Shown: positions 46,131 through 49,559 of the stretch, piece after piece | How positions within the stretch are numbered: the stretch's first letter is position 1 | How the letters are laid out: each line of letters starts with the position of its first letter | Source of the DNA: Alkalicoccus daliensis | Lineage (GTDB): Bacteria; Bacillota; Bacilli; Bacillales; Salisediminibacteriaceae | Reading direction: 5' to 3' | Length of the DNA: 64,000 nt | NCBI RefSeq assembly: GCF_900103955.1 | Contig: NZ_FNIL01000001.1 | Location: 62,001-126,000 of the forward strand | Notes under the pieces: model-generated | Database searches by the model: none | The model's input: the letters and a program-made list of their open reading frames with translations, nothing else | What the model was told of the DNA's origin: nothing | Position numbers and translations under genes: made by a program

Positions 46131-46646
46131 TAGAATAACTCCTCTTTTATCGTAACTTGCTTAGTGTTTAATTCAGGATTATGCGCTGGCCTGGATTTCT
46201 TACGAACGCTTACTGCACACAAATGGATATTCAAACTGTGCTGGTTCTTCAGGCATCTCCAGCCGCGTTCGGAAGTACTTTAATAGTAATTTTTATATTG
46301 TGTTTGTTAAGTTCTTAGAAATCGGTGTTGAGGATGCAGTGAGCTCAAGTGATATTTAAATTTCTTTTCGAAAGAAGAGAACCAGCTTTTACAAATTGTA
46401 TCATAAATTTAGATAACCAAGTGTACGTCGCTTTTCTAATAATTTTTTCCGAGATTAATACTTCTTTACAGAACTTTCATACAAGCAGAATTTAACGAAA
46501 AGTAATTTGCAGTTAAAAATAATCGAGCACAGTTTTAAATATTAATTACACCTTATCATTATGGAAAGCACCTTAAAGATAATAAGATGCAAAAGTCAAT
46601 TAATCAATGGTAATATGGGTAGATAAGGAAAATGGAGGGATAAACG
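46131..46646. other. 516-bp intergenic region before msrA
   Basis: Both neighbours point away from it. No additional ORF with a ribosome binding site was found. A/T-rich DNA near 46540-46640 should contain the msrA promoter. GGAGGG (46634-46639) is the msrA ribosome binding site. Confidence 0.4.
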
Positions 46647-47273
46647 TTGAAGCACATTCAGACTGCAACTTTTGGACTTGGCTGATTCTGGGGACCCGAT
46701 GGTCAGTTTGGCCGTCTTCAGGGAGTACTGCGGACACGAGCAGGATATGCCGGAGGAGATACAATAAACCCAACCTATAGAAAAATGGGTAATCATACAG
46801 AATGTATTGAAATCGATTATGATCCATTGATAATCAGTTATGAAGATTTACTGCATGAATTTTGGACGCTCCACAGCGGAAAAAACCATGGATACGGCGG
46901 AAGACAATATTTGTCTTTACTTTTGTTTCGTTCTAATGAAGAAAAACAGACGGCTTTGAAAGTGCGTACTATATATGAAGAGCGAAAAGGAAGTAAAATA
47001 GATACTGAATTATCCGCATTTCAAAGCTTCTATCCTGCAGAAAATTATCATCAGAAATACTCCTTAAGAAGGTTTAAGAAAGCTTGGGAACCTTTACAGA
47101 ACCATTTTTCTTCAGAGGAAGATATTAGGGACTCTCTACTGGCTGCCAAGCTCAATGCTGCAGCGCAGGGAGAATTAACGATGAATGAAATTTACAGCAA
47201 TCTTTCATTATGGACTGCCGATGAAAACCAACAACAGGAATGGAAAAAGCTGCTGCAGTCCGTCAAATGGTAG
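46647..47273 (+). CDS. msrA: peptide methionine-S-sulfoxide reductase with UGA at the catalytic position (putative selenoprotein)
   Basis: MsrA reduces methionine-S-sulfoxide in proteins. Read from TTG 46647 (GGAGGG, 7 nt upstream), the frame gives LKHIQTATFGLG, then TGA at 46683-46685, then FWGPDGQFGRLQGVLRTRAGYAGG. In MsrA this is exactly the G-C-F-W active site, so TGA replaces the nucleophile Cys codon. Downstream the frame is fully conserved: INPTYRKMGNHTECIEIDYDPLIISYEDLLHEFW and the C-terminal helices, 208 codons in total. A hairpin after the TGA fits bacterial SECIS rules. I read the protein as containing Sec at residue 13. The sole Cys after it is in HTECIE, so the resolving Cys is unusual. 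The alternative is a nonsense mutation or a sequencing error, in which case only a 162-residue fragment lacking the active site would be made from ATG 46785. Confidence 0.85.
46695..46723 (+). promoter_or_regulatory. candidate bacterial SECIS element in msrA
   Basis: Just after the in-frame UGA the mRNA can form CCC-GAUGGUC, loop AGUUU (46705-46709), GGCCGUC, a UUCA bulge and GGG. Seven base pairs (two G-U) are continuous below the loop, with three more under the bulge. The loop begins 19 nt after the UGA and has G within its first two bases, which meets the published general bacterial SECIS model (loop 16-37 nt from UGA, G in the first two loop positions). Confidence 0.65.
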
Positions 47274-47294
47274 TTGTTAGAAGGAGATATAATT

Positions 47295-49559
47295 ATGAAT
47301 TATCAGGATTCATACCGGCAGGCCCCTGCTTCTTTTCGACATAGAAGCAGAATTCACAGCAGAAAATACGGTATTGCCGGATGGTGGATCACACGCTTTA
47401 GACAGACCGGCGCATGGGATCGAGGATTGGAAGGAGTGCTGGCAGCTATATATATTGCCAGCATATTTGCAGCAGTAATTGGTGCTTTGGGAACGCCGAC
47501 TGGATTAGGTACCTGGATTGATATTATTATTTTTGTTTCAGCAAATACAGGGTTGTTTATACTTGCTGTTTTTCTGCTCAGCTTTCTTATGTCTTTGCTT
47601 TACATACCGCTGCCCAGATTAATCTTCAGTGCCTCTGCCTATACAGCATATCTGGCATATTATATTCAGGAAGAAGCGAGTCTGGGTACTTTTTTTATTA
47701 CTGTAACAACCGGTATATTTATCCTCAGTGCATACGTGCTGGGAAGTTTTTTTCAAATTTGGCTGGGCAGGATGAATATTTTAAAAAAGATCCTTCTGAG
47801 TCTTTTGCCTGCTGCCTGGTTTGTTTTCTTAATTCTATTTCATCCAACAATTGAACAGCACGAATCTGAATCAGCATTTGCCGATGCTGAAAACTCCCCT
47901 TCCTTATCCCTTCCGGACCCTGGAGAGGAAGGAGAGCTTGAAGTAATTCATTTGCATTATGGAAATGGAGAGGATCGTCACAGAGAGCAGTTTAATGAAA
48001 ATGTAGATCTTATTTCTACAAATGTAGATGCCTCGCTGTATATTGAAGAAAATGAATGGCCGGGGTGGCGGACAAGGTTTTGGGGGTTTGATCAAACATC
48101 CCTTCCGCTGAACGGGGAAATGTGGCTCCCTGATGGGCAAGGCCCTTTTCCATTAGTTTTGATTGCCCATGGAAATCATCGCATGGAAAATTTTTCTGAT
48201 GGTGGTTACGGGTATTTAGGAGAGCACCTTGCTTCCCATGGCTATGCGGCAGTTTCAATTGATCAGAATTTTGTTAATTTCTCAAACTGGACTGGTATTC
48301 CGGACGAGGATATGAAACTTCGCGCATGGTTATTTATGCAGCATTTACTCGAGCTGCAGCGGTTTTCTGAAACCGAAGGAAATCTGCTGGAAGGCAAATT
48401 AAATATGGACTCTCTTGCCTTAATCGGTCATTCCCGCGGGGGACAGGCAGTTGCAATGGTTGCTGATCATGAAAGATTTTTTGAAAATGATCCTTCTCTG
48501 GCAGGTATAGAAGAGTTGGAAGTAACTTCTATTGTGGGGATTGCTCCTACAGATCAGGAAGTAGATGATACCCGGCCGGCGCCGGGAAATGTTAATTATC
48601 TTACTTTACATGGAGCACGGGATGGAGATGTACACAATTTCCGTGGAGACAGACAATACAGCAGAACAAGTTTTACGAATGAAGGAGACTTTGTTAAGTC
48701 AGCAGTTTATATTGCAGATGCCAACCACAGTCAATTTAATACTGACTGGGGAAGAGCGGATATGCGGCTGCCTGGAAGTCTGTTTTTAAGCAGGGAGCAG
48801 ATGATGGAGCCGGAAGAGCAGCGGGAGCTTACGAAAGTGTTTATCTCCGCATTTTTTGAAGTGACGCTTCGAGAAAATGAAGAATATCTTCCTTTATTTA
48901 AAGATGTTCGTACCGGGAGGGAATGGCTTCCTGAGACACAGTACGTAACTCGTTATCTGGATACAAGCTATGAACCGCTTGTGACATTTAACAGCAGTAA
49001 CCCGCGTGATACCTTCCCGGAAGGAGTTGAAGCATCCGGGGAGAATTTCACAGAATGGGAGAAAGTTTCAACAGAAGACAGAAAAGGTGGAAACAAGGCA
49101 GCGGATGGAGTTATTTTTGAATGGGATCAGGAAGGAAGCTACACTCTCTCGCTTCCAGAAGAGTACAGGGATAATTATTTCGGTGAGGATTTTAATACTT
49201 TTTCTTTTTCCATGGCACAGATGGATAAAGAATTAGAAAATTATCAGGGAGTGACAGATCCAGAACTGCACATCCGTTTTGTATTTGATGATGGGAATGA
49301 AGTGTCCGCAGCTCTTGATGATTATGACCGTCTTCCAGACTCTGTCTGGACACAGTATTCAAGGTATCCATTTTTAGAAGAGCATTTTAGAGACGGAAAA
49401 TATGACGAAGCCATTCAGCCTGCGTTTCATACGCATATGATTCCTGTAGAAGCCTTTACAGAAGAAAATGTTTTAGGAGACTTAGAAGAGATTATCTTTG
49501 AGTTTTCAGAAGGACCAGGTCGATTAATTATTGATGATATTGGCTTTTTTAGTGAATAG
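47295..49559 (+). CDS. membrane-anchored alpha/beta hydrolase
   Basis: A 754-residue protein. Residues about 45-175 hold four hydrophobic helices. The rest is extracytoplasmic, with an acidic composition typical of salt-adapted proteins. The hydrolase core begins near residue 270: PLVLIAHGNHRMEN (oxyanion segment), nucleophile elbow IGHSRGGQAVAMVADHERFF (Ser about 380), and a likely His in DANHSQFNTDWG. The arrangement resembles chlorophyllase/dienelactone-hydrolase-like acyl hydrolases. A beta-rich domain of about 170 residues follows to the end. ATG 47295 has AGAAGGAGA upstream. It starts 21 nt after msrA and is probably co-transcribed with it. Confidence 0.75.
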   Translation: MNYQDSYRQAPASFRHRSRIHSRKYGIAGWWITRFRQTGAWDRGLEGVLAAIYIASIFAAVIGALGTPTGLGTWIDIIIFVSANTGLFILAVFLLSFLMSLLYIPLPRLIFSASAYTAYLAYYIQEEASLGTFFITVTTGIFILSAYVLGSFFQIWLGRMNILKKILLSLLPAAWFVFLILFHPTIEQHESESAFADAENSPSLSLPDPGEEGELEVIHLHYGNGEDRHREQFNENVDLISTNVDASLYIEENEWPGWRTRFWGFDQTSLPLNGEMWLPDGQGPFPLVLIAHGNHRMENFSDGGYGYLGEHLASHGYAAVSIDQNFVNFSNWTGIPDEDMKLRAWLFMQHLLELQRFSETEGNLLEGKLNMDSLALIGHSRGGQAVAMVADHERFFENDPSLAGIEELEVTSIVGIAPTDQEVDDTRPAPGNVNYLTLHGARDGDVHNFRGDRQYSRTSFTNEGDFVKSAVYIADANHSQFNTDWGRADMRLPGSLFLSREQMMEPEEQRELTKVFISAFFEVTLRENEEYLPLFKDVRTGREWLPETQYVTRYLDTSYEPLVTFNSSNPRDTFPEGVEASGENFTEWEKVSTEDRKGGNKAADGVIFEWDQEGSYTLSLPEEYRDNYFGEDFNTFSFSMAQMDKELENYQGVTDPELHIRFVFDDGNEVSAALDDYDRLPDSVWTQYSRYPFLEEHFRDGKYDEAIQPAFHTHMIPVEAFTEENVLGDLEEIIFEFSEGPGRLIIDDIGFFSE

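Follow-up and report, generated by a model that had tools for sequence, protein, structure and literature searches.

In an msrA gene of Alkalicoccus daliensis, a TGA triplet occupies the codon at which MsrA proteins carry their nucleophile, which raises the question of whether the gene is dead or encodes a selenoprotein. The gene lies in the window, i.e., the whole stretch of 64,000 nucleotides that was analysed. Alkalicoccus species are aerobic. The UGA at 46683-46685 is almost certainly decoded as Sec by tRNA-Sec, SelB, SelA, and SelD under the direction of a downstream hairpin, because the same codon recurs in dozens of relatives, a hairpin accompanies it, and the selenium-insertion machinery is encoded in the genome. 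The identity of the codon, the hairpin, the machinery, the active-site residues, and both protein domains are apparent from sequence analysis. An earlier note on this DNA had proposed a putative selenoprotein MsrA in a Bacillaceae; the recurrence of the TGA, its co-occurrence with SelB, the hairpin, and the sel cluster bear this proposal out.

The msrA reading frame and its product

The selenoprotein form of msrA (46647..47273, forward strand) starts with TTG, ends with TAG at 47271-47273, and would encode 208 amino acids including Sec13. By direct reading, a ribosome binding site, GGAGGG (46634..46639, forward strand), is located 7 nt 5' of the TTG. The single in-frame stop between the TTG and the TAG is the TGA at codon 13 (46683..46685, forward strand), the nucleophile position, in the context GLG-U-FWGPDGQFG, where MsrA proteins have G-C-F-W. 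The earlier note had described the TTG with its good ribosome binding site, the TGA in place of the nucleophile Cys, and a frame open from there as far as 47273, and all three were found as described. It had also predicted that gene callers would start at ATG 46785 and lose the active site; in agreement with this, the longest table 11 ORF of the frame runs from that ATG and comprises 162 amino acids. The gene is therefore prone to being miscalled as an ordinary ORF without an active site. The gene 3' of msrA in the window is a predicted hydrolase-like ORF (47274-49559), named from its sequence.

When the TGA was taken as a residue, the 208-aa product matched the Pfam family PMSR (PF01625) over residues 6-141 (E 8.3e-36, 124 bits vs. 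a gathering score of 23.7), while its five NCBIfam matches were all under cut-off, including PRK05550 (114.3 against 330 bits) and TIGR00401 (101.7 against 108.1 bits). The best match to a solved structure (E 1.9e-45) aligns residues 4-207 with residues 7-209 of the CoMsrA chain; the entries 4LWJ, 4LWK, 4LWL, and 4U66 are presumably CoMsrA itself or variants of it. CoMsrA (PDB 4LWM) is the selenoprotein MsrA of Clostridium oremlandii (PMC4479559). According to two reports (PMC4333827, PMC4479559), it is 209 residues long and contains a single Sec but lacks Cys, a Cys form is 20 times less active than the Sec form, activity requires the helical domain, and the reductant is glutaredoxin and not thioredoxin; the C-terminal helical domain is described in the former. 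By alignment with CoMsrA residues 1-144, the MsrA catalytic domain of the window's protein spans approximately 46647..47072, and the remainder, approximately 47073..47270 (both on the forward strand), would form a CoMsrA-type helical domain at the C-terminus. The presence of the latter is indicated by the match to the CoMsrA chain and by the helices predicted in an AlphaFold2 model built from 36 aligned sequences (mean pLDDT 95.6, pTM 0.90).

Among 38 aligned proteins, the equivalents of CoMsrA Tyr47, Glu55, Gln89, Tyr90, and His137 are invariant and that of Tyr140 is nearly so; the counterparts in the window's protein are Y44, E52, Q87, Y88, H135, and Y138. In the same alignment, no Cys besides the nucleophile site is invariant or nearly invariant. 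Since a conserved resolving Cys is thus lacking, the enzyme would belong to the 1-Cys (here 1-Sec) type, which needs external reduction. The protein therefore resembles CoMsrA in its Sec at the GUFWG nucleophile, its two domains including the helical one, its lack of a conserved resolving Cys, and its active-site residues. It differs in having one Cys, the non-conserved C53, and in its host, which is a Bacillaceae, that of CoMsrA being a strict anaerobe (PMC4479559). The same genome also encodes three ordinary Cys MsrA domains (L001-L003), which likewise score over the PMSR cut-off but have the motif GGCFWC and no internal stop.

Insertion of Sec, enzymatic activity, and the reductant are what we infer for this protein. 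tRNA-Sec, SelB, SelA, and SelD would read the UGA as Sec, directed by the hairpin approximately 20 nt downstream. The selenolate of Sec13 would then attack methionine-S-sulfoxide and become oxidised, and the oxidised Sec would have to be reduced by an external thiol, e.g., a glutaredoxin-like or bacillithiol-dependent protein, or via a dimer as proposed for CoMsrA.

The codon in relatives and the selenium machinery

The genome containing the window (3.78 Mb, 99.98% complete) encodes a single tRNA-Sec that exceeds the gathering score of 47 bits, at 59.2 bits, and 17 weaker matches fall short of it; ARAGORN calls this gene tRNA-SeC with the anticodon tca. SelB scores 387 bits against a curated cut-off of 242.25, SelD matches TIGR00476 with 407.8 bits, and a SelA-like ORF of 474 amino acids was named from its sequence alone. 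Together, these four genes form one cluster of about 6 kb (C15:424980-431014), which lies on the same contig as the window (C15:62001-126000) and outside it, and ARAGORN detects no tRNA gene within the 64 kb. Thus, the window is free of sel genes, as had been claimed, and the genome-wide search for selA, selB, selD, and tRNA-Sec that the earlier note had called for recovered all of them, selA as the SelA-like ORF. SelD (L061:11448-12509, reverse strand) has a UGA of its own at the active site (KKAG-U-GCK), and for this reason its ordinary ORF begins too late.

A first sample comprised 150 related genomes, including that of the window, each with some MsrA match. Its long-form homologues were defined as all 40 rows with an E value no higher than 8e-43, together with that of G043, which is in two pieces in neighbouring frames, giving 41 genomes. 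The aligned nucleophile codon is TGA in 40 of the 41 (the window included) and TGC in one, G047, in which no SelB scores above cut-off. SelB exceeds its cut-off in 87 of the 150 genomes and in 39 of the 40 with TGA, the exception (G034) being 76% complete; therefore, 48 SelB genomes have no TGA form among the 41. In a second sample, named genomes were scanned and the best 80 of 468 relatives were taken; 23 of these loci have TGA and 57 have TGC or TGT, which are not frequencies because the scan used two patterns, one of them built around Cys. SelB accompanies all 23 TGA forms vs. 8 of the 57 Cys forms. The two samples overlap in genomes, and their counts are not additive. The Cys-form genomes with SelB over cut-off are G178, G182, G183, G187, G192 (partial SelB), G199, G227, and G229.

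This association bears on the possibility that the UGA is read through as Trp or Cys by suppression and that selenium is not involved. Low-level UGA read-through occurs in bacilli, which is the point in favour of such a reading; however, the TGA forms go with SelB, a bSECIS-like hairpin lies behind the UGA, and five further TGAs of the genome are found at redox active sites (see below), so that suppression is very improbable.

Downstream of the TGA, the frame is open for at least 183 codons in 37 of the 40 TGA copies, and the aligned proteins are 38-58% identical to that of the window. The claims that the codon is beyond a chance mutation and that the protein is kept on either side of it thus hold, given the TGA in 39 further genomes and conservation of the relatives on both sides. 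These data leave scarcely any room for the idea that a nonsense mutation killed the gene and left behind a pseudogene or a shortened protein that starts at ATG 46785. The 162-aa ORF would be available for such a product, and 3 of the 40 TGA homologues are broken elsewhere; however, the product would be without the nucleophile motif, the same TGA is shared by 40 genomes, most of them with long open frames and well-diverged proteins, and a dead gene is not expected to retain both the codon and the hairpin. A sequencing or assembly error is of negligible probability, since the codon, read here from the assembled sequence, is identical in 39 other genomes.

In the three interrupted TGA forms (L058, L059, and L060), whose genomes have SelB over cut-off, the frame is broken 51, 136, and 71 codons past the TGA, respectively, which may reflect early decay or sequence error. 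These copies suggest that a Sec msrA can be dispensable.

Among 299 genomes of the phylum, 17 (including that of the window) have a match at 1e-30; the matches of the other 16 contain one TGA in 14 cases and none in two, and direct reading confirmed the codon in 13 of these 14 (all except L161). Four loci (L150, L156, L158, and L159) are more distant Sec-MsrA relatives with open frames of 339-362 amino acids and an MsrB-like stretch nearby.

The hairpin behind the UGA

A bSECIS-like hairpin, GAUGGUCA-GUU-UGGCCGUC, is located at 46698..46716 on the forward strand, with its loop (46706-46708) 20 nt past the UGA. According to the rules given in a review (PMC13188914), a bSECIS element has a loop of 3-9 nt with G in its first two positions, a stem of 4-16 bp, a distance of 16-37 nt from the UGA, and an MFE of -7.5 or lower. 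The window's hairpin, with the loop GUU, 8 bp, a distance of 20 nt, and -8.7 kcal/mol, lies within these ranges. Taken singly, the 58-nt strand of the window is no more stable than its own shuffles (z -0.32), and the case for the hairpin therefore rests on comparison. A search of Rfam gave no SECIS match over the gathering score and one far below it, and a simple inverted-repeat search found nothing beyond a 6-nt palindrome.

When 63 aligned nucleotides of 40 TGA genes were folded together, a single hairpin resulted (columns 19-37). Its pairing extends to 91.9% of cells, compared with 87.0 (sd 0.8) in shuffled alignments, and its covariation score is 0.310 vs. 0.231 (sd 0.012); for neither measure did any of 500 shuffles reach as high. 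Slid registers of the hairpin pair in at most 51.6%. Cells changed on both sides also lie above all 500 shuffles of the 40 genes, while two of the five pair measures, namely pairs changed on both sides and pair types, do not exceed them.

The TGA and Cys forms differ in the same respect. A strict bSECIS hairpin at -7.5 kcal/mol or below is present in 32 of 52 distinct TGA forms (and absent in the other 20) vs. 3 of 58 Cys forms; against synonymous shuffles, it reaches p ≤ 0.05 in 32 of 52 and 4 of 58, respectively. With one mismatch permitted, the numbers are 33 vs. 7 at -7.5 and 47 vs. 19 at -5, and p ≤ 0.05 is reached by 18 of the 52 TGA forms vs. 4 of the 58 Cys forms under a control that is harsher, its codon usage being taken from the same stretch. 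In 50 of the 52 TGA forms, the best hairpin has its loop beginning 19 or 20 nt past the UGA. Moreover, where the TGA forms have Arg at the loop (31 rows), its codon is always CGG, compared with 5 of at least 25 in the Cys forms; across these sequences, codon choice tracks the hairpin.

Sec and Cys forms, the selenoproteome, and neighbouring fusions

Sec-MsrA is a known selenoprotein family, as stated in two reviews (PMC9312934, PMC13188914). One table of a GOS survey contains nine Sec-MsrA sequences (PMC2398784), and a 2006 survey reports one, in Syntrophobacter, its table giving three Bacillales selenoproteins in three families (PMC1794560). Selenoproteins of Bacillales as such are therefore not new, and the Sec-MsrA of the window joins an established family and is not a new kind, because Sec-MsrA is already known and its closest solved relatives are CoMsrA. 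The earlier note had regarded Sec as notable here, an assessment that is weakened by the prevalence of TGA among the sampled long-form homologues and by the prior description of the C. oremlandii type. Among the openly accessible articles that came up, judged by title or opening of the abstract, none appeared to describe a Sec-MsrA from a Bacillaceae. A 2026 review states that aerobic bacteria rarely retain selenoproteins, and the terms Bacillus, Bacilli, Bacillota, and Bacillaceae do not occur in its text (PMC13188914). The added interest lies in the host group, the clean contrast between Sec and Cys, the additional Sec candidates, and an adjoining dead domain.

Cys-form homologues occur in Planococcaceae (Caryophanaceae), Paenibacillaceae, Domibacillus, Salinicoccus, and Carnobacteriaceae. 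They resemble the window's protein in length over both domains and are 41-47% identical to it in the best segment; unlike it, they carry TGC or TGT at the site. With TGA in 40 related genomes and Cys twins close by, the reasons for retaining or losing Sec can be put to the test, and many of these organisms are named strains. In a quick tree built from 63 Sec and 59 Cys rows (122 in all), the Cys forms are nested among Sec forms, and at least five state changes are required, two of which are forced by starred branches. However, neither one Bacilli clade of all Cys forms (p 0.858, 57 rows) nor one of all Sec forms (p 0.38, 49 rows) is rejected by the AU test; the Cys forms may therefore derive from Sec forms or the reverse, in one or several switches.

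MsrA is not the only candidate in the genome. Four of its ten AhpC-TSA matches, all outside the window (L192:2994-3455, L193:2982-3488, L194:2931-3446, and L195:2916-3479, with start codons picked by judgement), contain one TGA each, in the contexts TPG-U, SW-U-PAC, ST-U-QVC, and LG-U-PIC, which we take to be thioredoxin-fold active-site motifs. A table in PMC13188914 lists TxxU and UxxC for thioredoxin-fold families. All NCBIfam matches of the four candidates are under cut-off. The four genes rule out MsrA and SelD as the whole selenoproteome. When G was required in the first two loop positions, each of the six TGA sites (MsrA, SelD, and the four AhpC-TSA genes) was followed 19-33 nt on by a hairpin with the loop GUU, GGA, AGUU, or AGUUG; the raw energies range from -4.9 to -9.9 and do not reach -7.5 at three of the sites. 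An organism counts as selenoprotein-rich when it has six or more selenoprotein genes, and most such organisms are Deltaproteobacteria, Clostridia, and Synergistetes according to a figure legend (PMC5029168). The window's genome has four matches to the formate dehydrogenase family, none of which contains a TGA, and among the matches listed for seven other genomes of the genus there is no Fdh-alpha with TGA. Among the matches listed, at least 14 of the 40 TGA-msrA genomes have an Fdh-alpha with one TGA, which rules out a lack of Sec formate dehydrogenase in the whole group.

MsrA-MsrB fusions were sought around msrA within at most 1.5 to 3 kb per side, some surroundings ending at contig ends. 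A same-strand fusion lies directly downstream of seven distinct TGA forms: L034 (whose genome is also that of L112), L044, L049, L087, L091, L111, and L119. In all seven fusions, another residue stands in place of the MsrA Cys, the motif being GGHFWH, GGHFWF, or GGPFIF. Two Cys forms also have a downstream fusion: in that of L101 the MsrA Cys is changed to Arg (GGRFWF), and that of L103 keeps GGCFWC, with its MsrA and MsrB parts in two frames. The MsrB Cys motif is retained in all seven changed fusions that do not end at a contig end. As a control, a fusion search of the 150 relatives matched 87 genomes, and the MsrA Cys is kept in all of the best 30 matches, which include the upstream copy of L051; the changed fusions of G017 and G033 also appear in the control, scoring below the best 30 of 87. 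Directly downstream of msrA in the window's own genome, there is no fusion.

One reading of these observations, to which we give an even chance, is that the genome has a selenium-based oxidative-repair kit without Sec formate dehydrogenase and that in some relatives Sec-MsrA took over the S-sulfoxide work of the fusion. The kit would consist of Sec MsrA together with four Sec thioredoxin-fold proteins, one of them peroxiredoxin-like, and Sec SelD as the feeder. In such relatives, the MsrA domain of the fusion would be dead (Cys to His or Pro), and Sec-MsrA would pair with the MsrB within one gene cluster. The fusion copies located upstream of msrA, in L051 (a TGA form) and L103, keep their Cys.
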